From assembly GCA_018457135.1 (NCBI GenBank), contig JAGGDU010000007.1, positions 1 through 64,000 of the forward strand: a DNA stretch of 64,000 nt, in the 5' to 3' direction. The notes below the pieces were generated by a model. It saw only the letters and a list, made by a program, of their open reading frames with translations. It ran no database searches and was not told the DNA's origin. Source of the DNA: Trichodesmium erythraeum GBRTRLIN201 (GTDB taxonomy: Bacteria > Cyanobacteriota > Cyanobacteriia > Cyanobacteriales > Microcoleaceae). Positions 37,743 to 58,185 of this stretch are shown here, in pieces (the first letter of the stretch is position 1; the number at the start of each line of letters is the position of its first letter). Both the position numbers and the translations under genes were made by a program.

Positions 37743-39092
37743 ATGAGCAACGCAATATCAACCTCTGTACCAGTAATTGAAAAAGTCAACAAGCCAGACT
37801 TCGTATTTGATCCAAGTATTCGGCGCGATCATGCAGAACAATATCGTACTTCAGAGTGGTATGATGGTCGTGGAGAAATAAAGGCAGTGGATGATGGTCG
37901 CTCATTCGAGATTTCTGCAACATTTACCCTCAAATCAGAAGTCAAATTAGTAAATGGAGTTTTAGATCCATCTAACCCTATTTTAGCTAATATCTATAAA
38001 AGTCGTAATCGATGCGTAGCAGTTGTCGATCACATGGTAGATGAACTTTATGGAAAATCATTGACAAATTATTTTGAGCAGAATGATATTCCTCTGAAAA
38101 CTCTTGTCTGTCGTGCTTGGGAGTCAGACAAAAATACTGATACGGTCCATAAAATATTGCAATTCTTGGGCAAAGATGGTTGTGATGTATCTCGTAACGA
38201 ACCTGTTTTGATAATTGGAGGTGGTGTACTCAGTGATGTTGCTGGTTTAGCCTGTAGTTTACAACATCGGCGGACACCTTATGTAATGATTGGAACATCA
38301 GTTGTTGCTGCTATTGATGCTGGACCATCTCCTCGTACCTGCACAAATAGTAAGCTATTTAAAAATGGTATTGGAGCATATCATCCCCCTGTGATGACTA
38401 TAGTAGACCGTACTTTGTTCCGTACTTTGGCAAAAGGTCATATTCGCAACGGAATGGCAGAAATTATTAAAATGGCAGTTACTGATGATCAAACATTATT
38501 TGAATTGCTGGAAAAATATGGTCGACGTTTAGTTGAAACTCATTTTGCTAATTTTGATGCAGATGAGGAACTGGTAAAAATATCTGATGAGGTGATTTAT
38601 CGTGCTTTGTATTCTTATATGAAGCATGAAGGAACAAATATGTTTGAAACCTATCAAGACCGACCTCATGCTTACGGTCATACATGGAGTCCCCGTTTTG
38701 AGCCAGTGGTCAAACTAATGCACGGTCATGCTGTAACTATTGGTATGTCTCTTGGAGCTACTTTAGCGTTAGAGATGGGTTGGATAACAACAAATGAACG
38801 TGATCGAATAGTTAACTTGTGTCATTCTATGGGTTTGTCTGTTTACCATGAAATTATCGAAGATACAGAGTTAATGCTTCAAGCTCAGAAAAATATAACT
38901 CGTAAGCGCGGTCGTAGGTTGTGGGCACCCCTACCTACAGGTATTGGTTCTTGTAGTTTTGCGAAGGAAATATCTCCAGATTTATTAACATCTGCTGTTG
39001 AGGAACATAAGAAATTTTGTGCTTCTTTTACTTCTTTTGGTAGTCAAGGAAAAGGTGAAGAAATGTATTTAAGCGACCTAGGTTTGGAGTAA
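37743..39092 (+). CDS. mysA: MysA: desmethyl-4-deoxygadusol synthase (sugar-phosphate cyclase)
   Basis: First enzyme of mycosporine-like amino acid synthesis; converts sedoheptulose 7-phosphate to desmethyl-4-deoxygadusol with NAD+ and a divalent metal. 449 residues, dehydroquinate-synthase superfamily. The NAD-binding part has EPVLIIGGGVLSDVAGLACS (about 155-175) and GTSVVAAIDAGPSPRTCTN. Probable metal ligands are E240 (NGMAEIIK), H313 (AYGHTW) and H329 (MHGHAV), at the spacing expected for the fold. The DAGPSPRTC signature separates this clade from true dehydroquinate synthase. EEVS (2-epi-5-epi-valiolone synthase) is the nearest alternative, but the adjacent mysB and mysC fix the pathway. 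Confidence 0.93.
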   Translation: MSNAISTSVPVIEKVNKPDFVFDPSIRRDHAEQYRTSEWYDGRGEIKAVDDGRSFEISATFTLKSEVKLVNGVLDPSNPILANIYKSRNRCVAVVDHMVDELYGKSLTNYFEQNDIPLKTLVCRAWESDKNTDTVHKILQFLGKDGCDVSRNEPVLIIGGGVLSDVAGLACSLQHRRTPYVMIGTSVVAAIDAGPSPRTCTNSKLFKNGIGAYHPPVMTIVDRTLFRTLAKGHIRNGMAEIIKMAVTDDQTLFELLEKYGRRLVETHFANFDADEELVKISDEVIYRALYSYMKHEGTNMFETYQDRPHAYGHTWSPRFEPVVKLMHGHAVTIGMSLGATLALEMGWITTNERDRIVNLCHSMGLSVYHEIIEDTELMLQAQKNITRKRGRRLWAPLPTGIGSCSFAKEISPDLLTSAVEEHKKFCASFTSFGSQGKGEEMYLSDLGLE

Positions 39093-39767: not shown

Positions 39768-40598
39768 ATGACAACCGTTGTGAAAACAGAAACTGCCAGA
39801 CCAGTTACACCATTAGGTATTTTGGTAGAGCAACTTGAAAGAATTGTCAAGATGGCAGAAACTGCAGAAATACCACCAGAATTATCTAATGCTATTAAGC
39901 AAGCGTATCAATTAGGGGCAGGTCTTGACCCCTATTTAGAAGAAAATACCACTCAAGAATCTCCTGCTTTGACAGCATTAGCAGAAAAGACTCGTCAAGA
40001 ACCATGGAGTTCAAGATTTTCCAATAGCGAGACTGTGCGTCAATTAGAGCAGGAAATGTTATCTGGGCATATTGAGGGACAAACCTTAAAAATGTTTGTT
40101 CATATGATTGGGGCTAAAAGTATCCTGGAAATAGGGATGTTTACTGGGTATTCAGCATTGGCAATGGCGGAAGCTTTACCACAAAATGGGCGGATGGTTG
40201 CTTGTGAAGTGGATGAATATGTATCTAACTTTGCTAAATCTTGTTTTGATGGGTCTCCACATGGAAGCAAAATCTCGGTGGAAGTTGCACCTGCTCTAGA
40301 AACCATTAAGAAGTTGGCAGATGCAGGAGAAACTTTTGATTTAGTCTTTATTGATGCTGATAAAAAAGAGTATATAGAGTACTTCAAAATACTTTTGGAT
40401 ACAAGTTTGTTAGCAACAAATGGATTTATTTGTGTCGATAATACTTTACTTCAAGGGGAACCCTATCTACCGAAAGAAAAACGTAATCTTAATGGAGAAG
40501 CGATCGCTCAATTTAATCGCTTTGTTGCAGAAGATCCTAGAGTAGAACAAGTTTTACTACCTTTACGAGATGGGTTAACTATTATTAGGCGAAAGTAG
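39768..40598 (+). CDS. mysB: MysB: O-methyltransferase forming 4-deoxygadusol
   Basis: SAM-dependent methyltransferase that methylates the MysA product to 4-deoxygadusol. 276 residues, about the usual MysB length. Class-I Rossmann fold: motif I SILEIGMFTGYSALAMAEAL (about 120-140), the acidic strand end MVACEVDEY, and metal-dependent motif FDLVFIDADKKEYIEYF with CVDNTLLQGEPY, typical of the caffeoyl-CoA O-methyltransferase family. The N-terminal 90 residues (ARPVTPLGILVEQLERIV) are the MysB-type extension. It lies 675 bp after mysA, with no closer partner. Confidence 0.93.
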   Translation: MTTVVKTETARPVTPLGILVEQLERIVKMAETAEIPPELSNAIKQAYQLGAGLDPYLEENTTQESPALTALAEKTRQEPWSSRFSNSETVRQLEQEMLSGHIEGQTLKMFVHMIGAKSILEIGMFTGYSALAMAEALPQNGRMVACEVDEYVSNFAKSCFDGSPHGSKISVEVAPALETIKKLADAGETFDLVFIDADKKEYIEYFKILLDTSLLATNGFICVDNTLLQGEPYLPKEKRNLNGEAIAQFNRFVAEDPRVEQVLLPLRDGLTIIRRK

Positions 40599-41385: not shown

Positions 41386-42750
41386 ATGGGACTAATATTA
41401 TTTATTCAAGTACGTGCTTATGCATTGTTCCAAAATATCGGAACTATTGCATTATTATTGATTTTTTTACCATTTAATTTATTAAGGGTAATACCTTTAC
41501 TACTCTGGAATTTAATCAGTCTACCATTTACCAAAAAATTAGTGGCAGATAATCCCAAAAATATCTTAATCACGGGCGCAAAAATGACAAAATGCTTGCA
41601 ACTTGCCCGTTCATTTCATGCAGCAGGTCATAAAGCTTTTATATTAGAAACAAATAAATATTGGTTATCAGGAAATAGATTTTCTAATGCCGTTACAGGT
41701 TTCTATACAATACCTGCTCCAAATAAAGATTGGGATGGTTATTGTCAGGGATTATTAGAGATTGTAAAAAAAGAAAACATAGATGTATTTATTCCAGTAT
41801 CTAGCCCAGTAGGAAGTTACTATGAATCTTTAGCAAAACCACTTTTATCTGAATATTGTGAAGTTTTGCACTTTGACGTAGAAGTAACTCAAATGTTAGA
41901 TAACAAGTTCACATTTATGGAAAAAGCTAAAAGTTTTGGTTTATCTGTACCAAAATCTTTTTTAATTACAGACCCAAAACAAATTCTCAATTTTGACTTT
42001 GCTGCTGATGGGAGTAGATATATTCTTAAAAGTATTCCTTACGATTCAGTACGTCGTTTAGACTTGACAAAATTGCCCATGAATTCAAGGGCAGAAATGG
42101 AACAATTTGTTGGAAATTTGCCTATTAGTGAAGAGAAACCATGGATTATGCAAGAGTTTGTTAAAGGCAAAGAATATTGTACTCATAGCACTGTTAGAAA
42201 AGGGAAAATCAGACTGTATTGCTGTTGCGAATCATCAGAATTTCAAGTCAATTATGCTCATGTTGATAATCCACAAATTTACGATTGGGTAGAAAAATTT
42301 GTTAGAGAATTAAATATTACTGGTCAAATTTCATTTGATTTTATTCAGACAGAGGATGGTCGAGTTTTTCCCATAGAATGTAATCCCAGAACTCATTCAG
42401 CAATTACAACTTTTCATGACCATCCAGGGGTAGCAGATGCTTATTTAAAAGATAGTCAAAATGATAATGAAAACCCAATATTACCGGGACTAAATAGTCA
42501 ACCTACTTATTGGACTTACCATGAATTATGGAGGCTAACAGGAGTTAGGTCATTAGAGCAATTGAAAGCTTGGATTAGAAGAATTAATCAAGGAAAAGAT
42601 GCTATTTTTCAAGTGAATGACCCCTTACCATTTTTGATGGTTCACCACTGGCAAATTTTCTTATTACTACTCAATAATTTACGCAAATTTAAAGGTTGGG
42701 TAAGAATTGACTTTAATATTGGAAAACTGGTAGAGTTGGGAGGGGATTAA
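41386..42750 (+). CDS. mysC: MysC: ATP-grasp ligase forming mycosporine-glycine
   Basis: Couples glycine to 4-deoxygadusol, activating the enol with ATP, to give mycosporine-glycine. 454 residues, normal for MysC. Residues about 12-48 are strongly hydrophobic (ALLLIFLPFNLLRVIPLLLW) and may attach the enzyme to a membrane. The N-terminal PreATP-grasp part has NILITGAKMTKCLQLARSFH; the ATP-grasp core has LDNKFTFMEKAKSFGLSVPK, IMQEFVKGKEYCTHST and the metal-binding end FPIECNPRTHSAIT. A 787-bp spacer separates it from mysB. Confidence 0.93.
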   Translation: MGLILFIQVRAYALFQNIGTIALLLIFLPFNLLRVIPLLLWNLISLPFTKKLVADNPKNILITGAKMTKCLQLARSFHAAGHKAFILETNKYWLSGNRFSNAVTGFYTIPAPNKDWDGYCQGLLEIVKKENIDVFIPVSSPVGSYYESLAKPLLSEYCEVLHFDVEVTQMLDNKFTFMEKAKSFGLSVPKSFLITDPKQILNFDFAADGSRYILKSIPYDSVRRLDLTKLPMNSRAEMEQFVGNLPISEEKPWIMQEFVKGKEYCTHSTVRKGKIRLYCCCESSEFQVNYAHVDNPQIYDWVEKFVRELNITGQISFDFIQTEDGRVFPIECNPRTHSAITTFHDHPGVADAYLKDSQNDNENPILPGLNSQPTYWTYHELWRLTGVRSLEQLKAWIRRINQGKDAIFQVNDPLPFLMVHHWQIFLLLLNNLRKFKGWVRIDFNIGKLVELGGD

Positions 42751-43059: not shown

Positions 43060-43370
43060 GAGGTATTGTTTCAGTTGCTTGGAAACGAAAATTTACCAAA
43101 GTGTATGGTCAACCTAAACTCAAGAAAAAAAGGCAGAAATGATAGTTTTACCCTTAATGGTTCCATACCTACATCTATCAACTTAGTGGTAGGGGAGTCA
43201 GGGGGGTAGGTCGTTTAAAGTTACCTCAAATTTGATGGCTGAAAACTTATGAAATATTGCCACATGATTTTAATCCCAAGTTTGTAACTTTTAGCAGAAA
43301 AGCTAATAAATAGTTTGTCAGCTCTAAAGAAGTAGAACCTCGCCTCCCTCCAACTTGAGAAATCATTAGA
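43060..43370 (+). pseudogene. TnpB (IS200/IS605) N-terminal-half remnant
   Basis: Pieces in shifting frames resemble the first half of TnpB: WKRKFTKVYGQPKLKKKRQK (near 43080-43138), then GRLKLPQI, stop, WLKTYEILPHDFNPKFVTFS, RKANK, stop, FVSSKEVEP (about 43210-43340). Intact relatives read GRVKLPKIGWLK ... ISRKADKWFISF. Stops and frameshifts show it is dead. Confidence 0.65.
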
Positions 43371-43404
43371 TACAGCAGAATAAAATAAGATATATTATTA
43401 TATT

Positions 43405-43721
43405 ATGTTTTGCTGTTGTGTTAGGGATAGCTCTGATAATAAATAATAGTATATTTGCTTTGGTGATTTTCTCCTGGTAAATTTTAGCCTGTGCTTTGGG
43501 TCGGTTATTGGTATTGCCAGTGTGGCAAAAAACTATAAGTGTTCCAGTAGCAATAACAATGATTGATAATGATTGCAGGTATAATTATTGCCATTATCTG
43601 GAATAAAGAACTTAACCTAATCAATTGCTATTAATGAAGTCTTACCTGGCATCGTCGCAGGTTTTATTTTTTTGGAATTGCTAATTTTACGGTTTTGCCT
43701 AAAAGTTTGAGTAAACAATAA
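43405..43721 (+). pseudogene. Decayed C-terminal copy of the downstream symporter gene
   Basis: The 317 bases are a diverged duplicate of the last ~310 bases of the neighbouring symporter gene (44875-45185): shared blocks include aatagt.tatttgctttgg, gt..caataacaatgat and the final agtttgagtaaacaataaaat. Stops and frameshifts (for example SW-stop for SWSV) inactivate it. The remainder of the upstream copy is missing and is replaced by the TnpB remnant. Confidence 0.85.
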
Positions 43722-43748: not shown

Positions 43749-45185
43749 ATGGAAAAACAAATTTGGATTGGGATAACATTTATAGCCTTTTTGCTATCAT
43801 TTACAGTAGTAGGCATTTACTCCGCAACACAAAAGCAAAATACAACAACTGATTACTTACTTGCCAGTAGAAATGTTAATCCCTGGTTGACAGCACTATC
43901 CGCAATGGCAACAGGTCAGAGTGGGTTTCTATTTATTGGTTCGATAGGTTTTATCTATAAAGTTGGATTTGCTGCTATTTGGATACCCCTTGCTTGGACA
44001 ATAGGAGACTATATTGCTTGGTTGTTAATATTTAAAAGGTTGAGGTTAGTTTCTCAGGAAACAGACTCAGATACAATCTCCTCATTCTTAGGTCAAGAAA
44101 ATCTAAGTCCAAAAAATCAAGGGCGCTCGATTACAATAATTTCAGCACTAATTACCATAGGAATTCTGGGTACTTATGCTGCAGCTCAACTGGTAGCAGC
44201 AAGCAAAGGACTGAATGCTATATTTGGTTGGAACTATGAACTGGGTATTATTGCTGGGGCTGTAATTGTGGTTGTCTACTGTTTTTCAGGAGGTATCCGT
44301 GCTTCTATATGGACTGACTCTGTGCAGGGAATTTTAATGATATTATCTCTGTTGATTTTGTGTATAGTAAGTTTACTGGCTTGTGGAGGGTTGACAGAAC
44401 TTTGGGTCAAGCTTAATGCCATTGACCCCACTCTAACAAATTGGATGCCTACTAATTTACCTTGGGGGTTTTTTCCTTACTTTTTGGGGTGGTTGGTGTC
44501 AGGCTTGGGTGTTGTCGGTCAACCTCATGTATTAGTAAGAGCAATGGCAATTGACTCTGCAGATAATATAGCGTTAGCTCGTAACATAAAATTAGTCTGC
44601 GGTCTAATGAATTCGGCTACAGCTTTTGGTATAGGATTAACTGCCAGAGTTTTGTTACCTGAATTAATGACATCTGGTGACCCAGAGTTAGCATTACCGA
44701 ATCTATCTATAGAATTATTGCCAGCAGTTTTAGTAGGGTTGATGTTAGCAGGACTTTTTTCTGCAGCTATTTCTACAGCAGATTCTCAAATATTATCATG
44801 TTCTGCTGCACTAAGTCAAGATTTAGTTCCCAGTGGATCTAACTCTTATCGAAAAGCTAAAATTGCTACCTTAGCTGTTACTGCTTTTGTATTAGCGATC
44901 GCTCTCATAACAAACAATAGTGTATTTGCTTTGGTCATTTTCTCTTGGTCAGTTTTAGCCTGCGCTTTAGGTCCGTTGTTAGTATTGCGAGTGTGGCAAA
45001 AACCTGTAAGGGTTCCAGTCGCAATAACAATGATGATTACTGGTATAGTAGTTGCGATTATATGGAATAAAGGCTTTAACCTATCAAGCGCTATTTATGA
45101 AGTCTTGCCTGGTATGGCAGCAGGCTTTATTGTTTATGGAATTGCTAATTTGCAAATTTGGCCTAAAGATTTGAGTAAACAATAA
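43749..45185 (+). CDS. Sodium:solute symporter family transporter (PutP-like)
   Basis: Integral membrane Na+-coupled uptake protein. 478 residues with about 12-13 hydrophobic segments. The SSS signature regions are visible: ATGQSGFLFIGSIGFIYKVG near the N-terminus, GAVIVVVYCFSGGIRASIWT, and LLPAVLVGLMLAGLFSAAIS-TADSQILSCSAALSQDL (TM8, with the Na+-site Ser/Thr cluster). It is closest in style to proline symporters, but substrate cannot be assigned from motifs. It sits inside the MAA locus, 1 kb after mysC, and 43 bp before the DMT gene, so import of an amino-acid precursor or movement of a product is possible. Confidence 0.85.
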   Translation: MEKQIWIGITFIAFLLSFTVVGIYSATQKQNTTTDYLLASRNVNPWLTALSAMATGQSGFLFIGSIGFIYKVGFAAIWIPLAWTIGDYIAWLLIFKRLRLVSQETDSDTISSFLGQENLSPKNQGRSITIISALITIGILGTYAAAQLVAASKGLNAIFGWNYELGIIAGAVIVVVYCFSGGIRASIWTDSVQGILMILSLLILCIVSLLACGGLTELWVKLNAIDPTLTNWMPTNLPWGFFPYFLGWLVSGLGVVGQPHVLVRAMAIDSADNIALARNIKLVCGLMNSATAFGIGLTARVLLPELMTSGDPELALPNLSIELLPAVLVGLMLAGLFSAAISTADSQILSCSAALSQDLVPSGSNSYRKAKIATLAVTAFVLAIALITNNSVFALVIFSWSVLACALGPLLVLRVWQKPVRVPVAITMMITGIVVAIIWNKGFNLSSAIYEVLPGMAAGFIVYGIANLQIWPKDLSKQ

Positions 45186-45227: not shown

Positions 45228-46205
45228 ATGAACAATCAAGCTAGATTATTACCATTAAACCATTTCTCATCAATACCTATAGACTGTTTAGCTGCATTAA
45301 TTGGCAGTCTAATCTGTATATCTTTTTCACCAATTTTTATCCGTTTAAGCGAGTATAATCTTGGTCCAAATGCTACAATATTCAATCGTTTTTGGATTGC
45401 AGCTATTCCCTTTTGGTTACTAAATGGATTATTAACTTTAAATTACCGAAAACAAAAAAATAAAACTCAAATTGAATTAAATAAACCAGAACTAGTTAAA
45501 AAAGGAATGCTACTGATAGCAGATGGGATCCTTTTATCTATTGGTCTGATACTTTGGGCTTGGTCTTTAACCATGACAAGCATTGCTCACTCTACTATGC
45601 TCCATAGTTTAGTGCCTATATTTACTGTGTTAGGAGCATGGTTAGCTTTAAGTCAAACCTTTGACCATAAATTTCTACTTGGTATGTTTGTGGCGATATG
45701 TGGTTCTGCCTTGTTAGAAGTGAATGATATTTTCTCATTTAGAATTAGTGAACAATTACTAGGAGACTTAGCAGCTTTACTCTCAGCAGTATTTTTTGGT
45801 ATACACCCACTTATAGTTCAGAAACTTCGCACTCAATTCAACCCAGTTACAATTATGACTTGGTCTTCAACAACGAGTGCCTTATTGCTCTTACCTGTAG
45901 TTCTAATTACTGAGGATCAACTTTTTCCAAGTTCATTAACTGGTTGGCTTGCAGTCATTATTCAAGCTCTTTGTAGTCAAATGATAGGTATAGGGCTGTG
46001 GGCTTATTCTCTCAAAAAATTATCTGCTGGGTTTACTAGCTTAGTTGCATTATGTGCTCCTGCTCTTAGTATGATCGAAGGTTGGATAATTTTCTCGGAA
46101 AATATTAATCTCTGGAGTTCGGTAAGCTTCTCAATAATTTTATGGGGAATGTATTTGGCTATATCAAGTAAATCTGTTAATACAGGAGTTGAGTCTTCTA
46201 ATTAA
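45228..46205 (+). CDS. EamA/DMT-family transporter
   Basis: 325 residues with about ten transmembrane segments arranged as two EamA repeats: first repeat from SLICISFSPIFIRLSEYNLG to GSALLEVNDIF, second from LLGDLAALLSAVFFGIHPLI to the C-terminus. Members export amino acids, nucleotides or other small metabolites, although many are uncharacterised. It lies 43 bp after the symporter gene and 148 bp before the oxygenase gene, all on one strand. Export of an MAA or removal of intermediates is a reasonable inference only. Confidence 0.85.
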   Translation: MNNQARLLPLNHFSSIPIDCLAALIGSLICISFSPIFIRLSEYNLGPNATIFNRFWIAAIPFWLLNGLLTLNYRKQKNKTQIELNKPELVKKGMLLIADGILLSIGLILWAWSLTMTSIAHSTMLHSLVPIFTVLGAWLALSQTFDHKFLLGMFVAICGSALLEVNDIFSFRISEQLLGDLAALLSAVFFGIHPLIVQKLRTQFNPVTIMTWSSTTSALLLLPVVLITEDQLFPSSLTGWLAVIIQALCSQMIGIGLWAYSLKKLSAGFTSLVALCAPALSMIEGWIIFSENINLWSSVSFSIILWGMYLAISSKSVNTGVESSN

Positions 46206-46353: not shown

Positions 46354-47454
46354 ATGCTAACAATTGAAAAACTACCAAATTATCTGTCATCAAATATTAA
46401 ATTGCGGTTTTTACGCGATGAGGAAAAAAGTTTTACTACCGGTGAAAAAAAACTACCTTTAGTCATAGAACCAGTCCAGAAAAAATCCTTCTCAGTTCTC
46501 GCTGAATTAGTCAGGGAAAATAGAGATTGGTTTCATAGACAGCAAGACAACTACGGCGCTCTATTATTCCGGGGATTTGAAATAGAAACTGCGGCACAAT
46601 TTGAAAATATCCTAGAGCTATTGAATGTTAAATTGGCATCAAAGTATCATTTTGGCAGCTCTCAAAGAAATCGAATAACTGATAAAGTTTTCACCTCTTC
46701 CGAAGCACCAGGGAATTTGATAATACCTCCACATAATGAACTGAATATGGTGCCAGTTAGGCCCATGTGTCTGGCTTTTTTCTGTCAAATTGAACCCACT
46801 TTATATGGCGAAACTCCTATTATTAATACAGAAAAAATCTTTAACGAATTGTCTCCTAATTTGCAGCATAAATTCGCTAATACACCTCAGAAATTTGTGA
46901 GAAATGTTCCTAATCATTTATTAGGAATAGTTTTCGAGGAACTCTCGCGAGAGGAAATTACAAAAATGCTTGAAGACGGGGAATTTTATTTTGAGTGGAA
47001 AGCTGATGGTTCTCTTTATTTTGAATGTTCTTACATTCCCGTGTTCCATCACCCAAGAACGGGCAAACTGTGCTTTTGTCTCAGCACTTTTGATTCTTTT
47101 GTTGCCAGAGAATGGTATCGCAGCATTGCGCAGCGCTATCCATTCAAAGAAATAATATACTACAATTTTTTGCCTTCTAAATTGTATAGAAATCTGGAAG
47201 GGATAGACAATGCACAACCAAAAATGTACTTGGTTAATGAAGAAGGAAACAATACGAAAATAACAGAGGCAGAGGCAAAAGAATTAGGGGAAGCTGAATG
47301 GAAAAATGCTACAGTGTTTCCCTGGAGACAAGGAGACATTTTAGTAATAGATAACCTACAGGTTGTCCACGGTAGGCTCAATGTTCAACCACCGCGTAAA
47401 ATTCTCACCGCTTTCGGAAATATGTGTAATATTCGCGATATGAAAAAGAAGTAA
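46354..47454 (+). CDS. TauD/SyrP-type Fe(II)/2-oxoglutarate-dependent oxygenase
   Basis: 366 residues, non-haem iron dioxygenase fold. The facial triad is visible: H-x-E in PPHNELNMVP (about residues 128-131) and the distal His in DNLQVVHGRLNVQPPRK, with the 2-oxoglutarate-binding Arg after it. The GETPIINTEKIFNEL stretch is typical of the TauD/SyrP branch that hydroxylates amino acids or peptidyl intermediates. The oxygenase known from MAA pathways, MysH, belongs to the phytanoyl-CoA dioxygenase branch, so this is a different enzyme. Its position between transporters and mysD suggests tailoring of an MAA or of its amino-acid substrate. Confidence 0.85.
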   Translation: MLTIEKLPNYLSSNIKLRFLRDEEKSFTTGEKKLPLVIEPVQKKSFSVLAELVRENRDWFHRQQDNYGALLFRGFEIETAAQFENILELLNVKLASKYHFGSSQRNRITDKVFTSSEAPGNLIIPPHNELNMVPVRPMCLAFFCQIEPTLYGETPIINTEKIFNELSPNLQHKFANTPQKFVRNVPNHLLGIVFEELSREEITKMLEDGEFYFEWKADGSLYFECSYIPVFHHPRTGKLCFCLSTFDSFVAREWYRSIAQRYPFKEIIYYNFLPSKLYRNLEGIDNAQPKMYLVNEEGNNTKITEAEAKELGEAEWKNATVFPWRQGDILVIDNLQVVHGRLNVQPPRKILTAFGNMCNIRDMKKK

Positions 47455-47635: not shown

Positions 47636-48721
47636 ATGAAGTTAGAAAAAATCAATCAAAATCAACACTCATCCTTAGCCACAATGAATAGATTACAAGT
47701 CTTGCACCTGGCAGGTTCCCGTGTTTCCGAATTCTACTACAACCTATCAATACTCTATGCCAAAGAAGTAGTGCAACCAGTTGGAGTCAGCAGTTATTAT
47801 GCAGTAGTACATCCTGATGGTCTTTGGCAGTTGGGAGCTTCTTTAGATTCATTATCAGAAAAGATGTTACTTCAGGACATGATTCTGCAACTACCTCAAA
47901 TTGATGTTGTAGTTCCCCACATGTTCTGCTTTCTTGGTATGACCAGTTTCCGAGCATTTTTTGAGGATATGCTTAATCTACCTTTAGTGGGGTCACCATC
48001 CTATTGTACGGCACTAGCAACTAACAAAGCTCAGACGCGGAATGTTGTTTCGGCATCTGGGGTACAAGTAGCTAAAGCGCAGCAACTACGGCGGGGAGAA
48101 ACTTTAACAATGAAGCCTCCTTTTGTTGTGAAACCAACTTCGGAAGACAATTCTTTGGGCGTAACATTGGTGTGGGATGAATCTCAGATAGAAGCAGCCT
48201 TGGATAAGGGGTTTGAATTAGACAATAAATTGTTGGTTGAAGATTATATTCCTGGAAGGGAATTGCGTGTAGCTGTAGTTGAGCGAGAGAGTAAGTTGTC
48301 TGTCTTGCCGATGATAGAATATTTAGTCACAGAAGAACACCCTATTAGAACTGTACATGATAAATATGTACTTCAATCTGATGGAACTCCTGGAAAGCAA
48401 CCTGAGAAACCTATAGCTCAACCAATTTGTCCGGCGAATGTTACTCCAGAGTTATTTGAAAAACTAGTAAACGCAGCTAAAAATGCTCATATTGCATTGG
48501 GTTGTCGCGACTATTCTTTGTATGATTTCCGGGTACATGCTGAAACTAATGAGCCATATTTTCTGGAAGCAGGCTTATTCTGGGGTTTTGGGAAAATTAG
48601 TATGATTTCGCGGATGCTTCAAGCTGATGGGCAAAGTTTGGAGGATGTATCCCTAGAGTTGTGGAGTGCAGCAGCAGGAAGAACTCGTGTGGCTTGTGGT
48701 TCTTTATTTAAGTGGAATTAA
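47636..48721 (+). CDS. mysD: MysD copy 1: D-Ala-D-Ala-ligase-like MAA ligase
   Basis: ATP-grasp ligase that joins a second amino acid (serine, threonine or others) to mycosporine-glycine, giving imino-MAAs such as shinorine or porphyra-334. 361 residues. Family marks: PHMFCFLGMTSFRAFFED and LPLVGSPSYCTALATNKAQT (N-terminal), then PPFVVKPTSEDNSLGVTLVW, VEDYIPGRELRVAVVE and the C-terminal YDFRVHAETNEPYFLEAGLF metal-site region. It is followed 60 bp later by a near-identical copy: bases 47654-48222 match 48800-49368 exactly. It differs from copy 2 at 19 residues, 18 of them after residue 195. Confidence 0.92.
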   Translation: MKLEKINQNQHSSLATMNRLQVLHLAGSRVSEFYYNLSILYAKEVVQPVGVSSYYAVVHPDGLWQLGASLDSLSEKMLLQDMILQLPQIDVVVPHMFCFLGMTSFRAFFEDMLNLPLVGSPSYCTALATNKAQTRNVVSASGVQVAKAQQLRRGETLTMKPPFVVKPTSEDNSLGVTLVWDESQIEAALDKGFELDNKLLVEDYIPGRELRVAVVERESKLSVLPMIEYLVTEEHPIRTVHDKYVLQSDGTPGKQPEKPIAQPICPANVTPELFEKLVNAAKNAHIALGCRDYSLYDFRVHAETNEPYFLEAGLFWGFGKISMISRMLQADGQSLEDVSLELWSAAAGRTRVACGSLFKWN

Positions 48722-48781: not shown

Positions 48782-49867
48782 ATGAAATTAGAAGAAATTA
48801 ATCAAAATCAACACTCATCCTTAGCCACAATGAATAGATTACAAGTCTTGCACCTGGCAGGTTCCCGTGTTTCCGAATTCTACTACAACCTATCAATACT
48901 CTATGCCAAAGAAGTAGTGCAACCAGTTGGAGTCAGCAGTTATTATGCAGTAGTACATCCTGATGGTCTTTGGCAGTTGGGAGCTTCTTTAGATTCATTA
49001 TCAGAAAAGATGTTACTTCAGGACATGATTCTGCAACTACCTCAAATTGATGTTGTAGTTCCCCACATGTTCTGCTTTCTTGGTATGACCAGTTTCCGAG
49101 CATTTTTTGAGGATATGCTTAATCTACCTTTAGTGGGGTCACCATCCTATTGTACGGCACTAGCAACTAACAAAGCTCAGACGCGGAATGTTGTTTCGGC
49201 ATCTGGGGTACAAGTAGCTAAAGCGCAGCAACTACGGCGGGGAGAAACTTTAACAATGAAGCCTCCTTTTGTTGTGAAACCAACTTCGGAAGACAATTCT
49301 TTGGGCGTAACATTGGTGTGGGATGAATCTCAGATAGAAGCAGCCTTGGATAAGGGGTTTGAATTAGAGGATAAATTGTTGGTTGAGGATTATATTCCTG
49401 GAAGGGAATTGCGTGTAGCTGTGGTAGAGCGCAAGGGTGAGTTGCAAGTTTTACCTATGATAGAATATTTAGTCACAGAGGAACATCCTATCAGAACTGT
49501 AAATGATAAGTTGGTACTTCAATCTGACGGAACTCCTGAAAAGCAACCTGAGAAACCTATAGCCAAGCCAATTTGTCCGGCGAATGTTACTCCAGAGTTA
49601 TTTGAGAAACTAGCGAATGCAGCTAAAAGTGCTCATATTGCATTGGGGTGTCGCGATTATTCTTTGTATGATTTCCGGGTACATACTAACACCAATGAAC
49701 CATATTTCCTGGAAGCAGGCTTATTCTGGACTTTTGGGAAAATTGCTATGATTTCGCGGATGCTTCAAGCAGATGGAGAAAGTCTGGAGGATGTAGCTCT
49801 AGAGTTGTGGAGTGCAGCAGCAGGAAGAACTCGCGTAGCTTGTGGTTCTTTGTTTAAGTGGAATTAA
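48782..49867 (+). CDS. mysD: MysD copy 2: D-Ala-D-Ala-ligase-like MAA ligase
   Basis: Same length (361) and function class as the preceding gene. The N-terminal half is identical in DNA to copy 1, while the C-terminal ATP-grasp half has diverged: for example VVERKGELQVL against VVERESKLSVL, and LFWTFGKIA against LFWGFGKIS next to the metal-binding EAG. Differences are confined to the half that in ATP-grasp enzymes binds ATP and contributes to the amino-acid pocket, so altered amino-acid preference is conceivable. Retention of both open frames suggests that both are used. Confidence 0.92.
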   Translation: MKLEEINQNQHSSLATMNRLQVLHLAGSRVSEFYYNLSILYAKEVVQPVGVSSYYAVVHPDGLWQLGASLDSLSEKMLLQDMILQLPQIDVVVPHMFCFLGMTSFRAFFEDMLNLPLVGSPSYCTALATNKAQTRNVVSASGVQVAKAQQLRRGETLTMKPPFVVKPTSEDNSLGVTLVWDESQIEAALDKGFELEDKLLVEDYIPGRELRVAVVERKGELQVLPMIEYLVTEEHPIRTVNDKLVLQSDGTPEKQPEKPIAKPICPANVTPELFEKLANAAKSAHIALGCRDYSLYDFRVHTNTNEPYFLEAGLFWTFGKIAMISRMLQADGESLEDVALELWSAAAGRTRVACGSLFKWN

Positions 49868-50373
49868 AGAAGCATACCAAGGATTTTATGAATTTTTGAG
49901 ACAGCTTGAGTAGATGGGACTTGTTGGCTGGGAAAAAACTCTCTAAAGTAGATAGAAAAACCTTTTCAGTCAATACATGAAACATAAAACATCTATCTTT
50001 GTAGGTGAAATTCCTTCTGCCTTGTTGTTGGGTTAATAGTGTAGACCATACGGTAGAAACTGGAAATTAATCCGTATGGTATAATTCAAAAGTTGCGGTA
50101 GTTGATAGGTTTTTCCCATTTTCTTATAACAGTTGTCATGACTGTTAGATTCCTAAATTATCAAATATAGTCCGTGCTGCGAATTTAACTTCTGACTCCT
50201 GAATTTAGCTATAAAACCTAGCACCTACTAACTACTAATACCAAATTAGATTCATAAAAAGCTCGTTTTTCCGAAGCCTTCTGACTCTTTTGCCTAAAGC
50301 TTCCTGACCTTTTAACCCTTCTGCCTCCTGCCAGAAAGCATAAGTGTTTTACTCTTTTAATAAATCTTCTATG
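49868..50373. other. Intergenic after mysD copy 2
   Basis: No gene. It contains a hairpin accatacgg ... ccgtatggt (50045-50080) with 9-bp perfect arms and an 18-base loop, not followed by a T-run. Confidence 0.55.
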
Positions 50374-51363
50374 TACACCGGACTTAATATAAATATGTCA
50401 CCAAGTAAAAATACTTCAGAAACAAACCCCCCACTTAATTATCCCACGCTCGGTATCATTGGTTGTGGAAATATTGGAGGGCGACAAGCAGCTAATTTTA
50501 TTGCCCAGGGTTACCCAGTTTATGTCTACGATATAAATTTAGATAGAATGACAGAGTTAGAGTCTTTAGGCGCTCATATTACCCATAGTTGTGCTGAACT
50601 TGCTACCTATTCAGATGTAATTTTTACTTCTCTACCTACTCCTGCTGATGTTGTTAGGGCTGTACTAGAGGGTGACGGCAACCTGAGTCAAGGGTTGCGA
50701 TCGCGAAGTATTTATATAGATATAACCACTAATTCTCCAGAAACAATATTCAAACTCAGCAAAGCTATGGAAGAACTGGGGGTTGAGATGTTAGACGCTC
50801 CTTTTAATGATTGCCCTGAAGGTGCAAAAAGCGATGGAGGTATGGGTTTAGCTGTTATGGCAAGTGGTTCTAGGAAAACTTTTGAGAGAGTTGAACCTAT
50901 CCTCCAACTGATGGCAGATCGCGTTATCTATTGTGGGACCTTAGGGAATGGGACTCGATGTAAGCTGATCCATAATGCGGTAAACGCAGTTGCTGTTCAA
51001 GCAGTTACAGAAGGAATTACATTGGGTTTAGCTCAGGGAATTCCCCTAGAAACTATTTGGGATGCTTTACGCTTCGGTGCTTTTGGTCAGAACGCTGGAG
51101 ATATTCATGGCTTGCCTCACTATTGGTTTTCCCGACGTTGTGATGACTTGTCTCAGCATCCTGACTTTACTGTTAAGTTACTACATAAAGATTTGCAACT
51201 AGCTCTAGAGATGGCTAGTCAGCAAAATATATCTGTTCCCCAGTTCAGCTTGACAGTAAAAGATTATGAAGAAGCAGTGCGCAGGGGGTTTTCTGATTAT
51301 TCTACTACTAAAGTTCGATGCTTGCAAGAAGAGCAAGCTAGAGTAATGGCTAAAACTACTTAG
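50374..51363 (+). CDS. 3-hydroxyisobutyrate-dehydrogenase-like NAD(P)-dependent oxidoreductase
   Basis: Beta-hydroxyacid dehydrogenase family. From ATG 50374 about 329 residues; ATG 50398 (MSPSKNTSETN) is also possible and a GTG at 50344 less so, since none has a good RBS. The Rossmann motif GIIGCGNIGGRQAANF is close to the N-terminus, with DITTNSPETIFKLSKAMEE in the substrate region and the catalytic Lys in GTRCKLIHNAVNAVAV. The C-terminal all-alpha domain is complete. Substrate is not predictable. It lies between mysD copy 2 and the NRPS; oxidation or reduction of a beta-hydroxy-acid such as a serine/threonine-derived group on an MAA would suit the family chemistry but is inference. Confidence 0.85.
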   Translation, partial: YTGLNINMSPSKNTSETNPPLNYPTLGIIGCGNIGGRQAANFIAQGYPVYVYDINLDRMTELESLGAHITHSCAELATYSDVIFTSLPTPADVVRAVLEGDGNLSQGLRSRSIYIDITTNSPETIFKLSKAMEELGVEMLDAPFNDCPEGAKSDGGMGLAVMASGSRKTFERVEPILQLMADRVIYCGTLGNGTRCKLIHNAVNAVAVQAVTEGITLGLAQGIPLETIWDALRFGAFGQNAGDIHGLPHYWFSRRCDDLSQHPDFTVKLLHKDLQLALEMASQQNISVPQFSLTVKDYEEAVRRGFSDYSTTKVRCLQEEQARVMAKTT

Positions 51364-51470: not shown

Positions 51471-54400
51471 ATGAATTATCAAGGTATTTCTACTTTAATA
51501 TCTCCTTCTACCTCTCACATACAGCAAGCAAATTGGTTTCTGTATAAGTTCAACCCAACGGGTCTAGCAGATAAAATATCTATAGCAATTCAGATGGTAA
51601 ATTCTGTAGATATTCCAACTGTTAAAAATACACTACAAATATTAATGAAACGTCATTCTATTCTCCGTAGTGTATATTCTGAAAAAGATGGAAATATTAT
51701 TTCCCAGATTCGGGAAAATGTGGAGATTGACTGGGAAAAAATAGATGCTTATTCCTGGAATAATATCGAATTAAATGAACAATTGTCCGCTCGAATGAGG
51801 CTTCCTTTTAATCTGGAAACTGGTGGAGTATTTCGTGCTTGTTTATTTTGTATTTCGGCAACAGAAAATATTTTATTGTTGACTCTGCATCAAATAGCAG
51901 GCGATCGCTATTCCATATCAATATTAGTGGATGAATTTGTAACTATTTACGAGTCAAAAATTAATAATACTAACTCAAATTTAATCCCAATAAATACGAA
52001 TTATGTTAATTATATCAATGAAGAATTAGAATTTATAAATAGTTCAGAAGGAAAACAAATTGGTGATTATTGGCAGGAAAAGTTAGGGGGTGAATTACCC
52101 ATCCTAGAATTACCAACAAATTTTTCTCGCCCGAGTATTAGAACTTATAATGGTACTGCTCTAAAGTCAACTATAAACTTCCAATTAAATCAGAAAATTC
52201 AACAACTCGCAAAAACACTAGAAGTCAAAAAGGAAGAGATAATATTAGCAGTATTTAAAGTTCTACTTTACCGCTACACAGGAGAAGAAGATATTCTGGT
52301 TGGTTTATTACAAAGCCGAGAAAATCAACCATTATTTGAACAAGTAGTTGGCAATTTTACTAATATTACAGTTCTCAGAAATTTAATCTCAGGAAACATT
52401 AAGTTTACAGATTTTTTGAATCAAGTTAGCAAAAATATATTTGAAGTTGAGAATTATCAAAATTACCCTTATTCTTTGCTTATAAAACAATTAAAATCTG
52501 CTAATTTGAGTCACTATCCAATCTGTCAGGTTGCTTTTAGTTATCATAAATTTCATAAATTATTTGAGGCAAAAGAACTAGAATTAGAATATTATGAACT
52601 TCCACAACAAAAAGTAGACTTTGAACTAAATTTAGAAATCATAGAATTACCTGAATCTCTGTTAGCTAACTTTAAATATAATAGTGATGTATTAGAGGCT
52701 CAAACTGTTGCTCAAATTGCCGAACATTTCCAGAATTTACTAACAGCAGTTGTCGAAAATCCTGAGACACCAGTGGGTAAATTATCAATGCTGAGTGAAA
52801 GGGAAAAACAGAAAATATTAATAGCATGGAATGAAACAAAAACAGATTATCCTCAAGACATATCTATTCATCAGTTATTTGAGAGTCAAGTAGAGAAAAC
52901 CCCAGATGCAATAGCAGTAGTTTTTGAGTCAGAAAAGCTGACTTACTCCGAGTTAAATAATAAAGCAAATCAACTCGCTCACTATTTACAAAAATTGGGA
53001 GTAAAACCAAAAGCACACTTAGGCATTTGTGTGGAACGATCTCTCTCAATGGTTATCGGTATATTAGGAATTCTCAAAGCAGGAGCAGCTTATGTCCCCC
53101 TAGATTCTAGCTACCCCTCAGAACGTTTGGCTTATATGATTTCTGATGCACAAGTGTCAGTGTTACTCACCCAGGAATCATTATTGACATCCTTGCCTAA
53201 ACATCAAGCACAAGTTGTTTGTTTAGATAGAGACTGGAAAGGGATCAAGGAATTTTCTACCGTAAATTTGAGCAGTGGAGTCACCCCAGAAAATCTAGGT
53301 TACATCATCTATACCTCGGGTTCCACAGGTAAACCCAAGGGAGTTGCCATGAGTCAACGCGCTTTAGTTAACTTGATTATGTGGCAGCAAGAAGAAGCAA
53401 CTGTAGGTCAAGGGGCCAAAACATTACAGTTTACTCCTATTAGTTTTGACGTATCCTTCCAAGAAATTTTTTCAACCTGGTATTCAGGAGGCACTCTGGT
53501 TTTAGTTTCTCAAGAAGTAAGACGTGATAGTTTTGCTTTGATGGCATTCATGGTTGAGAGTCAGATAGAGAGAATATTTCTTCCTTTTGTAGCTTTACAG
53601 CAGTTAGCTACAGTTGCTCCTCAATGTCAAGTTTTACCCCCATTCTGTGAAATTGTGACAGCAGGAGAACAATTGCAGGTTACTCCAGACCTAGTGGCAT
53701 TAATGAACCGACTTCCTAACTGTAAAGTCCAAAATCAATATGGACCCTCAGAAAGCCATGTTGTTTCTGCTTACACTTTACAGGGCGCTGCTACGAATTG
53801 GCCAAAACTACCTCCTATTGGTCGTCCTATTGCTAACAATCAACTTTATATTTTCAACACAGATTTACAGCCAATTCCCATCGGCGTTTCTGGAGAACTG
53901 TATATTGGTGGAGTCGGTGTGGCCAATGGTTATCTTAACCGCCCAGACTTAACTGTAGAAAAATTTATTACTATAGAAGGGAACAAGGAACAGGGAATAG
54001 GGAACAGGTTGTATAAAACTGGAGATTTAGCTCGTTATCTATCTGATGGGAACATCGAGTTTTTAGGTCGCATTGATAACCAAGTGAAAATTAGGGGTTT
54101 CCGCATAGAAATTGGAGAAATTGAAACTACTCTCAGTCAACACCCTATAGTCAAAGAAACGGTAGTATTATTGAGAGAAGATAAACCTGGTAATAAACTT
54201 TTAGTCGCGTATATTGTGCCTGAAACTGAAGGTGCTCAGAATGTTGTCCCCCAATTAAAACAATATCTGAAAGAAAAATTGGCGGAATATATGGTGCCTT
54301 CAGCTTTTGTGGTGTTGTCGAAACTACCCTTAACTCCCAGTGGGAAAGTTAACCGTCGCGCTCTACCTGCACCTGATATTTCTAGTTTTAGTCAGAGCGA

Positions 54401-55466
54401 TAATTTTGTGGCTCCGCGCGATCGCATAGAGCAACAATTAGCACAAATGTGGTCAGAAATTCTAAATATTCATCCAGTAGGAGTTAAAAGTAATTTCTTT
54501 GAATTAGGAGGCCATTCTCTCTTAGCAATTAATTTAATGGCCAAAATCCAGGAGAGCTTTGGCCAACAACTACCTTTATCTACTCTATTCACCAACCGGA
54601 CAATTGAAGATTTAGGCCGTTTAATTCGAGGAGAAAGTCAAGTTAGTTCTTCTTCTATAGTTCCCCTGCAAACTCAGGGAAATAAACAACCATTTTTTTG
54701 CATACATCCTGCCGGAGGTCATGTATTTTATTATCATGATTTATCCCATTATTTGGGGAATAATCAACCATTTTATGGGATACAAGCACAGGGATTTAAT
54801 GAAGGGGAAAAAATCTTCACAAATGTGGAAGATATGGCTGAATTTTATGTCCAAACTCTACTAGAATTTCAACCAGATGGTCCTTATCAAATTGGCGGTT
54901 GGTCTTTTGGAGGAGTTGTTGCTTTTGAGATGGGACAGCAGTTACTTCAGCAAGGTAAAGAAGTTAGCTTATTGGCTTTGTTAGACCCTTGGGTTCCCAT
55001 TTTATTAGACCCTAATAAAAAAATTGATAATTTGTATATGAAGGGTGTATTAAGTCGCTACTTTGGAGGTATGTTTGGTATAACTGATTTAGTTACCGAA
55101 GATGAATTATTAGGTTTAAAATCAGAAGAACAAATAGAGTTTATAATTGATAAGGCAGAGAAATTAAAGTTATTTCCCAAGGAAGCTACTCGGGAACAAA
55201 ACCGACGCTTTATTGATGTAATAATTGGCACTTTGAAGGCAACTTATACTTATAAACGTCATCCTTATCCAGGAAAAGTAACGGTTTTTCGGGCGCAAGA
55301 AAAGCATCCCCATGGCATAGATCCCCAATTAGTCTGGGTAGAAATGTATGCTATTTTAGATGTAGCTGATATAGAGGTAGTTATGGTTCCTGGTAATCAT
55401 TTTACATTTATAAAAGAATCAAATAATAAAGTATTAGCAGAATGTTTGAGTGAGCATTTAAAGTAG
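51471..55466 (+). CDS. NRPS with C-A-T-TE domains, MysE-like position
   Basis: A 1331-residue nonribosomal peptide synthetase module. Condensation domain at about 1-440: its catalytic motif, normally HHxxxDG, reads H140-Q-I-A-G-D145-R, so the second His is lost. Adenylation domain at about 465-965: A3 YIIYTSGSTGKPKG from Y611, A5 YGPSESHVV, A7 YKTGDLARYL, A10 K959. Pocket residues by alignment to GrsA read D660 V661 Q664 F703 V729 A731 Q756 V764 V765 K959, close to proline codes (DVQ-F-I/V-A-H-V-V-K). Thiolation domain with GGHS, Ser1016; thioesterase with GWSFGG Ser1145, probable Asp1172 and His1310. MysE in Anabaena is A-T-TE and activates serine. Here the substrate may differ. Confidence 0.9.
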   Translation: MNYQGISTLISPSTSHIQQANWFLYKFNPTGLADKISIAIQMVNSVDIPTVKNTLQILMKRHSILRSVYSEKDGNIISQIRENVEIDWEKIDAYSWNNIELNEQLSARMRLPFNLETGGVFRACLFCISATENILLLTLHQIAGDRYSISILVDEFVTIYESKINNTNSNLIPINTNYVNYINEELEFINSSEGKQIGDYWQEKLGGELPILELPTNFSRPSIRTYNGTALKSTINFQLNQKIQQLAKTLEVKKEEIILAVFKVLLYRYTGEEDILVGLLQSRENQPLFEQVVGNFTNITVLRNLISGNIKFTDFLNQVSKNIFEVENYQNYPYSLLIKQLKSANLSHYPICQVAFSYHKFHKLFEAKELELEYYELPQQKVDFELNLEIIELPESLLANFKYNSDVLEAQTVAQIAEHFQNLLTAVVENPETPVGKLSMLSEREKQKILIAWNETKTDYPQDISIHQLFESQVEKTPDAIAVVFESEKLTYSELNNKANQLAHYLQKLGVKPKAHLGICVERSLSMVIGILGILKAGAAYVPLDSSYPSERLAYMISDAQVSVLLTQESLLTSLPKHQAQVVCLDRDWKGIKEFSTVNLSSGVTPENLGYIIYTSGSTGKPKGVAMSQRALVNLIMWQQEEATVGQGAKTLQFTPISFDVSFQEIFSTWYSGGTLVLVSQEVRRDSFALMAFMVESQIERIFLPFVALQQLATVAPQCQVLPPFCEIVTAGEQLQVTPDLVALMNRLPNCKVQNQYGPSESHVVSAYTLQGAATNWPKLPPIGRPIANNQLYIFNTDLQPIPIGVSGELYIGGVGVANGYLNRPDLTVEKFITIEGNKEQGIGNRLYKTGDLARYLSDGNIEFLGRIDNQVKIRGFRIEIGEIETTLSQHPIVKETVVLLREDKPGNKLLVAYIVPETEGAQNVVPQLKQYLKEKLAEYMVPSAFVVLSKLPLTPSGKVNRRALPAPDISSFSQSDNFVAPRDRIEQQLAQMWSEILNIHPVGVKSNFFELGGHSLLAINLMAKIQESFGQQLPLSTLFTNRTIEDLGRLIRGESQVSSSSIVPLQTQGNKQPFFCIHPAGGHVFYYHDLSHYLGNNQPFYGIQAQGFNEGEKIFTNVEDMAEFYVQTLLEFQPDGPYQIGGWSFGGVVAFEMGQQLLQQGKEVSLLALLDPWVPILLDPNKKIDNLYMKGVLSRYFGGMFGITDLVTEDELLGLKSEEQIEFIIDKAEKLKLFPKEATREQNRRFIDVIIGTLKATYTYKRHPYPGKVTVFRAQEKHPHGIDPQLVWVEMYAILDVADIEVVMVPGNHFTFIKESNNKVLAECLSEHLK

Positions 55467-57147: not shown

Positions 57148-58185
57148 ATGTTAGGAAAAGCATCAGAATCTAAGAAAAAAATTTACCAAATAATCTACGG
57201 TTACTGGCAAAGTCAGTGCGTTTATACTGCCACAAATTTAGGTATCCCAAATTTACTACATTATGGACCGCAAACTGTTGAAATAATAGCAGAAAAAACT
57301 GGAACAAAATCAGAAAAACTTTATGTTGTACTGCGTGCTTTAGCTCATTTAGGAATATTTGTAGAAAAGCCAGGCCGTGTTTTTGCTGCTACAGAATTAT
57401 CAGAACTTTTAATGACAGATGATTCCCCATCTATAGGTCATTTTTTAATGCACATTACAGAGCCCAATATGTGGGATAGTTGGCGAGAATTAGAAAGTGG
57501 TTTAAAGACTGGAGAAGTACCTTTTAAAATAGCTAAAGGACAGGATTTTTACACTTCTTATATGACAGAAAATCCTCAGAGCAAGAATTTGTTTAATAAT
57601 GCTATGAGTTTCTTAACTGCTGAAGCTGTCGATCCATTATTTGAAGTTTATAATTTTAGTCGTTTTAAAACAGTGATGGATATAGGAGGAAATCAAGGAA
57701 CATTAATCGCTAATATTGTTAAAAAGTTTGGTTGTCAAGGAATTTTATTTGATTTACCCCATGAGGTAGAAACTGCTCCTAATAATATCTCTAAATATGG
57801 AGTTCTTGACTCAGTAAAAATCATAGGTGGTAGTGCTTTAGAATCTTTACCAAAGGGTGCTGATGCGATTATAATGAAGTATTTTTTATCAGTATTTAAT
57901 CAGGAAGATTCAATTAAAGTGTTGACTAACTGTCGGGAAGCTCTCCCTCAAGATGGTAGGGTAATACTTTTACAAACTTTAGTTCCTTCTTTGGGAGCGC
58001 CTGTAGAATATCCCGATGGCACAATACCTGCTTTGGCAGCAGTGCAAATGATGATTACTAACCCAGGGGGATACTGGCGCACAGAGGAGGAATACAAAAA
58101 TTTGTTTGCAGCTAGCGGTTTTAAACTAGAACAAGTGGTTTATACTGGTACCAGTCTTACGGTTATGGAGTTTAGTCCCTGTTAA
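57148..58185 (+). CDS. O-methyltransferase-family protein with atypical active site
   Basis: 345 residues of the plant-type/HIOMT O-methyltransferase family. Residues about 1-100 form the dimerisation winged helix (YQIIYGYWQSQCVYTATNLG, LYVVLRALAHLGIF). The SAM domain has motif I VMDIGGNQGTLIANIVKKFG, ILFDLPHEVE and VKIIGGSALESLPKGADAI. In the usual catalytic segment (KWxLHDWxDE) this protein has KYFLSVFNQED, so the catalytic His is replaced by Ser and the Trp by Phe. It may methylate a nitrogen or a very acidic oxygen, or act differently. It is the last gene of the co-directional block after the mys genes. RBS AGAGG precedes it. Confidence 0.85.
   Translation: MLGKASESKKKIYQIIYGYWQSQCVYTATNLGIPNLLHYGPQTVEIIAEKTGTKSEKLYVVLRALAHLGIFVEKPGRVFAATELSELLMTDDSPSIGHFLMHITEPNMWDSWRELESGLKTGEVPFKIAKGQDFYTSYMTENPQSKNLFNNAMSFLTAEAVDPLFEVYNFSRFKTVMDIGGNQGTLIANIVKKFGCQGILFDLPHEVETAPNNISKYGVLDSVKIIGGSALESLPKGADAIIMKYFLSVFNQEDSIKVLTNCREALPQDGRVILLQTLVPSLGAPVEYPDGTIPALAAVQMMITNPGGYWRTEEEYKNLFAASGFKLEQVVYTGTSLTVMEFSPC

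Follow-up and report, generated by a model that had tools for sequence, protein, structure and literature searches.

The mycosporine-like amino acid (MAA) locus of Trichodesmium erythraeum GBRTRLIN201 contains a gene for a non-ribosomal peptide synthetase (NRPS)-like enzyme, which raises the question of which amino acid this enzyme activates and how it acquired its pocket. The locus was analysed in a window of 64,000 nucleotides, the whole stretch of DNA considered here (positions 1 to 64,000 of contig JAGGDU010000007.1), where the gene occupies positions 51471–55466 of the forward strand; the genes and domains placed in the window below lie on the same strand. Based on Pfam matches, the pocket code and trees of the thioesterase (TE) and condensation (C) domains, its single open reading frame of 1331 aa is assigned to a MysE-family NRPS-like ligase with a proline-type pocket and the order C-A-T-TE (A, adenylation; T, thiolation), the C domain being degenerate. 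The original biochemistry of MysE was reportedly described by Balskus and Walsh in 2010. The fourth gene of MAA loci is given as either mysD or mysE (PMC9918943), and in 2023 MysE enzymes were divided by antiSMASH prediction into Ser-, Gly- and Pro-specific ones, with Moorena producens PAL-8-15-08-1 as the sole Pro case (PMC10510106).

Residue-by-residue reading of the pocket gave D660 V661 Q664 F703 V729 A731 Q756 V764 V765 K959, i.e. DVQFVAQVVK, the same string that had been aligned by eye in a preliminary description of the window. The residues D235 V236 Q239, A301 and V330 V331 of Pro-activating A domains are all present, and the code differs from DVQFIAHVVK at two of the ten positions, with V for I at 299 and Q for H at 322. 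When the 141-aa A4–A5 block was compared with the PDB, the proline modules TycB1 (77.7 bits) and GrsB1 (70.8 bits) were the most similar solved structures, followed by EntF (36.5 bits); we take the first two to activate Pro and EntF to activate Ser. In contrast to the window enzyme, TycB1 and GrsB1 are modules of peptide synthetases, not MAA enzymes, and have working C domains. For an NRPS of Streptomyces formicae KY5, precisely the string of the window enzyme, DVQFVAQVVK, is listed as Pro, and Q at 322 also occurs in domains tabulated as Pro (PMC9113097). Judged by the code, the PDB ranking and the pocket tree described below, the pocket is proline-type and not serine-type, as the preliminary description had proposed, and activation of proline by the A domain (AMP-binding, residues 470–822, positions 52878–53936, from Pfam and the genome search; AMP-binding_C, residues 883–959 of the 1331-aa protein, from Pfam) is predicted.

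Homologues were taken from two sources: the matches listed among 388 genomes of the order, part of which were retrieved, and a scan of named genomes in which the best 80 places gave 79 loci. A close TE match (at least 56% identity, next best 42%) was present in 53 of the 79 named loci, which did not include the Anabaena variabilis MysE. Three main pocket classes were found among the MysE homologues, namely Pro-type DVQF[VI]AQVVK, Ser-type DVWHxSLIDK (x = I, F or M) and Gly-type DILQLGLIWK, the latter two presumably denoting serine and glycine. Assigned by hand from these codes, the 53 loci comprised 9 Pro, 25 Ser and 17 Gly loci, with two left uncounted (L076, which has another code, and L079, a fragment without the pocket); the published division into Ser-, Gly- and Pro-specific MysE agrees with the code classes (PMC10510106). 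Among the matches listed, the Pro code, with V or I at 299, was read from a gene linked to mysC or mysD in nine genomes, that of the window among them; G373 and G247 also carry it, in fragments located on short contigs. These relatives occur in Trichodesmium, Okeania, Symploca and Hormoscilla; as the class is defined by its code, recurrence in nine genomes is no independent test. It is rather doubtful that the pocket accepts another cyclic imino acid (pipecolate, methylproline or hydroxyproline) instead of proline: all nine linked Pro-class MysE have Q and not H at 322, which would suit such a substrate, but Q322 is shared by the tabulated Pro domains mentioned above, and none of the genes read in the locus, to which this search was confined, was recognised as modifying proline or forming pipecolate.

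The serine code DVWHxSLIDK was read in 25 of the 53 named loci, 24 of which contain mysABC genes, and is absent from the window enzyme. A serine MysE sharing the window's pocket was the case that the preliminary description had set against its own claim, and this case failed, since Chlorogloeopsis fritschii PCC 6912, a shinorine maker, reads DVWHISLIDK. A shared serine pocket was ruled out by the DVWHxSLIDK of the serine-class MysE against the DVQFVAQVVK of the window.

The history of the pocket was found to differ from that of the flanking domains. All 27 MysE rows formed one clade in the TE tree (100/100), as did all 16 MysE rows in the C-domain tree (100/99). In the tree of the pocket block (approximately residues 656–775, positions 53436–53795, with approximate borders drawn from codes, PDB matches, identity profile, trees and tests), seven Pro-class MysE nested in a 16-row clade with nine A domains carrying Pro-type codes (100/99), and this support was unchanged with or without three long-branched rows; one of the nine comparators reads DAEFIAQVVK. 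On the pocket block, a single clade of the 26 Pro, Ser and Gly MysE was rejected (p = 6.4e-4), as was a clade of Pro plus Ser MysE (p = 4.3e-7). A group of Pro-class MysE with the Pro-code NRPSs was rejected on the TE domain (p = 1.2e-49) and on the C domain (p = 4.6e-6). The identities followed the same division: between the window and six Ser/Gly MysE they were 25–35% in the pocket, 46–51% in the C domain and 59–64% in the TE domain, and between the window and the nine Pro-code NRPSs 58–78%, 28–37% and, where aligned, 36–42%, respectively. As the comparators were picked by their code, their grouping in the pocket tree is partly expected, and the contrast with the C and TE domains is the informative part. 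Because the TE and C domains lie in the MysE clade but the pocket lies among the Pro-code domains of other NRPSs, the trees indicate a pocket swap, in which the pocket block of a MysE was exchanged for a Pro-type block of another cyanobacterial NRPS. In the ten comparator stretches (6.8–20 kb; nine Pro-type and one Gly-type), nothing matching the rest of the window locus was found at E≤1e-15. Activation of serine despite the code, yielding shinorine as with other MysE, can hardly be expected; the TE and C domains are of the MysE type, as this would have it, but the serine signature is missing, the pocket block is phylogenetically apart from that of serine MysE by the test given above, and the adjacent MysD could already cover serine.

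The domains around the pocket bear on what the enzyme may do with its substrate. In the C domain (Pfam Condensation, residues 15–450, positions 51513–52820), the motif HQIAGDR stands where HHxxxDG is expected (residues 140–146, positions 51888–51908), and the second histidine of the motif is the catalytic one. There were 24 named MysE of at least 1250 aa, and all but L076, whose separate C frame has HQIAGDC, were compared for this motif; the motif was lost in 21 of these 23 and kept in eight of nine other NRPSs with a readable motif. Among shorter MysE, 11 of 25 Ser-class proteins (≤922 aa) are too short for a C domain, and 14 of 17 Gly-class proteins (1110–1161 aa) have, judged by length, a truncated one. 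An intact condensation domain was ruled out by HQIAGDR and the comparison with the 23 named MysE, and the C domain of the window enzyme is probably inactive. The MysE of C. fritschii PCC 6912 (L087), with which this strain is said to make shinorine (PMC7693272), has a C domain with HCIASDT, which supports the C domain being dispensable. The remaining A-T-TE order is present with the serine of the T domain (PP-binding, LGGHSL, residues 988–1052, positions 54432–54626; Pfam and motif) intact. The MysE-type TE domain (residues 1074–1322, positions 54690–55436; Pfam, motifs, alignment and tree) has the S of GWSFGG, the D of LLDPW and the H of GNHFTF, which we take to form its intact catalytic triad.

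The Pro-class enzyme was found to occur together with MysD. The window contains two mysD genes of the D-Ala-D-Ala ligase family, at 47636–48721 (Pfam and order-wide search) and 48782–49867 (open reading frame and DNA alignment), 94.8% identical in DNA. In the search of 388 genomes, MysD was present in all nine genomes in which a Pro-class enzyme is linked to mysC or mysD (frameshifted in G180), in 10 of 11 Pro-code genomes when the two fragment genomes are counted (G373 has MysD), in none of the 12 retrieved Ser-class genomes, and in three of six retrieved Gly-class genomes, there on other contigs (G265, G356, G303). Fisher's test of 10/11 against 0/12 gave 9.6e-6, a value that overstates the association because the genomes are related. 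Within the named loci, MysD was found in 8/9 Pro, 0/25 Ser and 0/17 Gly cases and a MysF-type methyltransferase in 8/9, 0/25 and 16/17, the Pro-class exceptions (L080 lacking MysD, L128 lacking the methyltransferase) being loci truncated where their contigs end. This co-occurrence suggests that the enzyme is more than a substitute for MysD, and it probably does not merely replace it.

With MysD at hand, the ring position might already be filled, and a different use of activated proline is then a serious competitor, although clearly the less likely one: the TE would acylate a hydroxyl (the Ser/Thr side chain or the ring hydroxymethyl) of shinorine or porphyra-334 to a prolyl ester, which for shinorine would have an [M+H]+ of about 430.18 by hand arithmetic. 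The presence of MysD near the enzyme in all nine linked Pro-class genomes and its absence from the Ser-class genomes agree with this, and the transfer of acyl groups to hydroxyls is ordinary TE chemistry. On the other hand, the TE falls in one clade with that of the serine MysE, whose reported outcome is ring condensation, in Hormoscilla GM7CHS1pb the MysE is full-length although mysD is frameshifted, and Symploca SIO2E6 shows no MysD match.

The linkage to MAA genes also bears on whether the enzyme belongs to MAA synthesis at all. In the window it lies downstream of mysA (AroB/EEVS family, 37743–39092; NCBIfam and synteny), mysB (O-methyltransferase, 39768–40598; named from position and homology in MAA loci) and mysC (ATP-grasp, 41386–42750; NCBIfam and order-wide search). 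mysC is present in seven of the nine named Pro-class loci, the others being L080, a short contig, and L124, a contig that starts at the dioxygenase. It is very improbable that the enzyme stands in the locus by accident and makes some small prolyl compound with no relation to MAAs: Gly-class relatives do often lie away from mysABC (any of mysA, B or C in 8 of 17 named loci), but mysC or mysD stands beside the enzyme in eight of nine named Pro-class loci, and the Ser members of its TE clade are nearly all found with mysABC genes, as counted above.

Our preferred reading, held with moderate confidence, is that of a MysE-family MAA ligase with a swapped-in proline-type pocket that loads proline, its TE passing the prolyl group to the MAA scaffold. 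The pocket class, the swap, the loss of the C motif, the MAA linkage and the MysD co-occurrence are read from the sequence, and from them we infer proline activation, the TE as coupling catalyst, the position of attachment and the product. The A domain would adenylate L-proline or a closely similar cyclic imino acid and load it onto the T domain, the C domain would be silent, and the MysE-type TE would transfer the prolyl group to the scaffold that MysA, MysB and MysC provide. If the enzyme works as serine MysE does, the prolyl group would in the first place be expected to condense with mycosporine-glycine at its second ring carbonyl. The product would be a prolyl MAA, C15H22N2O7, with an [M+H]+ of 343.1500 and a tertiary, permanently charged iminium.

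Several points weigh against this reading. With MysD present, the second ring carbonyl may be occupied, which would disfavour simple imine formation, and with Q322 and V299 the pocket might accommodate a different imino acid. For the Pro-code comparators, which were chosen by code, proline is likewise a prediction from the code, and a stand-alone prolyl-carrier-protein ligase (7thn) was the weakest of 14 PDB matches to the A4–A5 block, with 29.5 bits. Two of the 23 MysE (L098, L103) retain both histidines of the C motif. As for MysD, Symploca sp. SIO2E6 (G247/L080), which has the Pro-code fragment, has mysC and no MysD match, and Nostoc sp. NIES 2111 carries mysABCE chromosomally and mysABCD on a plasmid (PMC10510106), so that MysE and MysD are able to share one genome. 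The nine named Pro-class loci come from the same genomes as those of the 388-genome set, so the counts are not independent, and the genomes are related.

Compared with known systems, the window enzyme shares with the serine MysE of the Anabaena variabilis and Chlorogloeopsis fritschii type the TE clade, the chassis, the place after mysABC and a C domain that is degenerate or absent in most; it differs in the pocket, in mysD and in the MysF-type gene, by the counts given above. Gly-specific MysE occurring with MysF and MysI, as in Nostoc sp. UHCC 0926, belong to the same TE clade, and the window also has MysF- and MysI-type genes, yet they differ by the pocket DILQLGLIWK, the mostly truncated C domain and the absence of mysD from their loci. 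The plasmid MysE of Nostoc sp. UHCC 0926 (G265:C7 = NZ_CP117772.1) has the glycine code, and a plasmid search gave only matches of less than 60% identity. This strain produces aplysiapalythine E, and MysF and MysI are described in the paper from which their names are taken (PMC10510106).

The MysE of Moorena producens PAL-8-15-08-1 is the nearest published case, being C-A-CP-TE (CP, carrier protein) with predicted Pro specificity in an MAA locus and a truncated mysD in the genome; compared with the window by its published description, it is one genome, for which the text available does not analyse a swap, the C motif or a pairing with MysD (PMC10510106). In four genomes of a Moorena-like genus (a guessed label), the only trace of MysE was a remnant of its TE, next to mysC in G084. 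The preliminary description had held that a proline-like substrate on an MAA would be new. As a Pro-type MysE was already predicted in 2023, this headline is not new, and the swap and the MysD pairing are the addition made here; these two and the degenerate C domain had no place in that description. Neither the pocket swap and its breadth nor the degenerate C domain nor the MysD pairing was found in the open-licence literature, supplementary files aside. The word "proline" is absent from the main text of a review (PMC10384724) in the part available, and another paper describes two more genes conserved in MAA clusters, its chosen example being from Pseudonocardia (PMC11888242).

Taken more widely, MysE may be regarded, tentatively, as a ligase chassis with exchangeable pockets (Ser, Gly, Pro, and in Hydrocoleum Gly-type with a methyltransferase), whose Pro version beside MysD in Trichodesmium and its relatives would make a permanently cationic prolyl-iminium MAA. 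Trichodesmium ranks among the main nitrogen fixers of the open ocean. Its MAA content is high, and two of its most abundant MAAs are called unidentified (PMC3083659); one of these could possibly be this compound. An undescribed proline-bearing sunscreen molecule may thus be made that is open to direct search, for which the locus supplies an exact mass and a candidate enzyme. Pocket exchange on a constant chassis means that a sunscreen ligase has been re-targeted in nature more than once, which is useful for designed MAAs, and the MysD pairing raises doubt whether MysD and MysE should be seen as interchangeable final enzymes.

Between mysC and mysD lie a sodium:solute symporter of the SSF family (43749–45185; Pfam and locus comparison), an EamA-family transporter (45228–46205; Pfam) and a TauD-family dioxygenase (46354–47454; Pfam and locus comparison) with 59–64% identity to the MysI-type gene of Gly-class loci. 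The symporter, called PutP-like in the preliminary description and noted there as fitting but proving nothing, is commoner beside the Pro class (6/9 Pro, 4/25 Ser and 0/17 Gly named loci), yet it occurs in 11 of 12 MAA stretches showing no NRPS; it is frequent in MAA loci of the group and was rejected as a proline-specific clue. Remnant-like pieces of a second symporter gene are present just upstream of the intact one (43346–43718), and two full-length tandem copies were seen in L189, from the same genus group as Okeania hirsuta. A role of the dioxygenase in MysI-type hydroxylation of the prolyl group was dropped, as a close TauD (79% identity) lies between two mysD genes in the NRPS-free locus G281 of the same genus group, which makes it independent of MysE. 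None of the nine named Pro-class loci scored a close TauD, though L124 holds a 98% identical piece cut by the contig end.

A 3-hydroxyisobutyrate-dehydrogenase-like gene lies at 50344–51363 (Pfam, PDB and mysD linkage); as the alignments with most homologues begin near residue 16, translation may actually start at the ATG at 50395. Such a gene is present in 15 of the 388 genomes (E≤1e-70) and shares a contig with mysD in 13 of these; eight of the 13 stretches, some of them short contigs, show no NRPS. The loci noted are the window, L181–L187, L193, L083 and L084. It looks like a MysD-linked tailoring gene, of which no description was found in the open-licence literature, and perhaps its product oxidises the Ser/Thr hydroxyl, with loss of CO2, to asterina- or palythinol-type MAAs. 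Downstream of the ligase, the MysF-type methyltransferase (Methyltransf_2; Pfam and class association) is located at 57148–58185. By DNA alignment, collinear stretches with 93.6–96.1% identity to Trichodesmium sp. MAG_R02 (L124) run through the window between about 47325 and 58198, which places the organism in or very near Trichodesmium.

Some relatives of the locus were of interest in their own right. In Hydrocoleum sp. CS-953 (L076:1579-5991 = G369:C172), an enzyme with the MysE chassis (86% identity to the window in T and 91% in TE) belongs to the same TE clade, has the glycine-type code DILQLGMIWK and carries a Methyltransf_12 (Pfam) inserted in its A domain, which suggests N-methylglycine. 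The contig of L076 has single-N joins with exact overlaps of 203–210 bp, so its assembly needs checking. In G084, an MAA locus (L180:9998-10483) has an 83% identical MysF-type gene, a MysE cut to part of its TE with one stop, and a mysD remnant, so that a locus of this kind seems to have decayed in this related lineage. Two distant MysA types, with 38–40% identity to the mysA of the window (e.g. that of L057), were found in MAA loci of the order that match in other respects.

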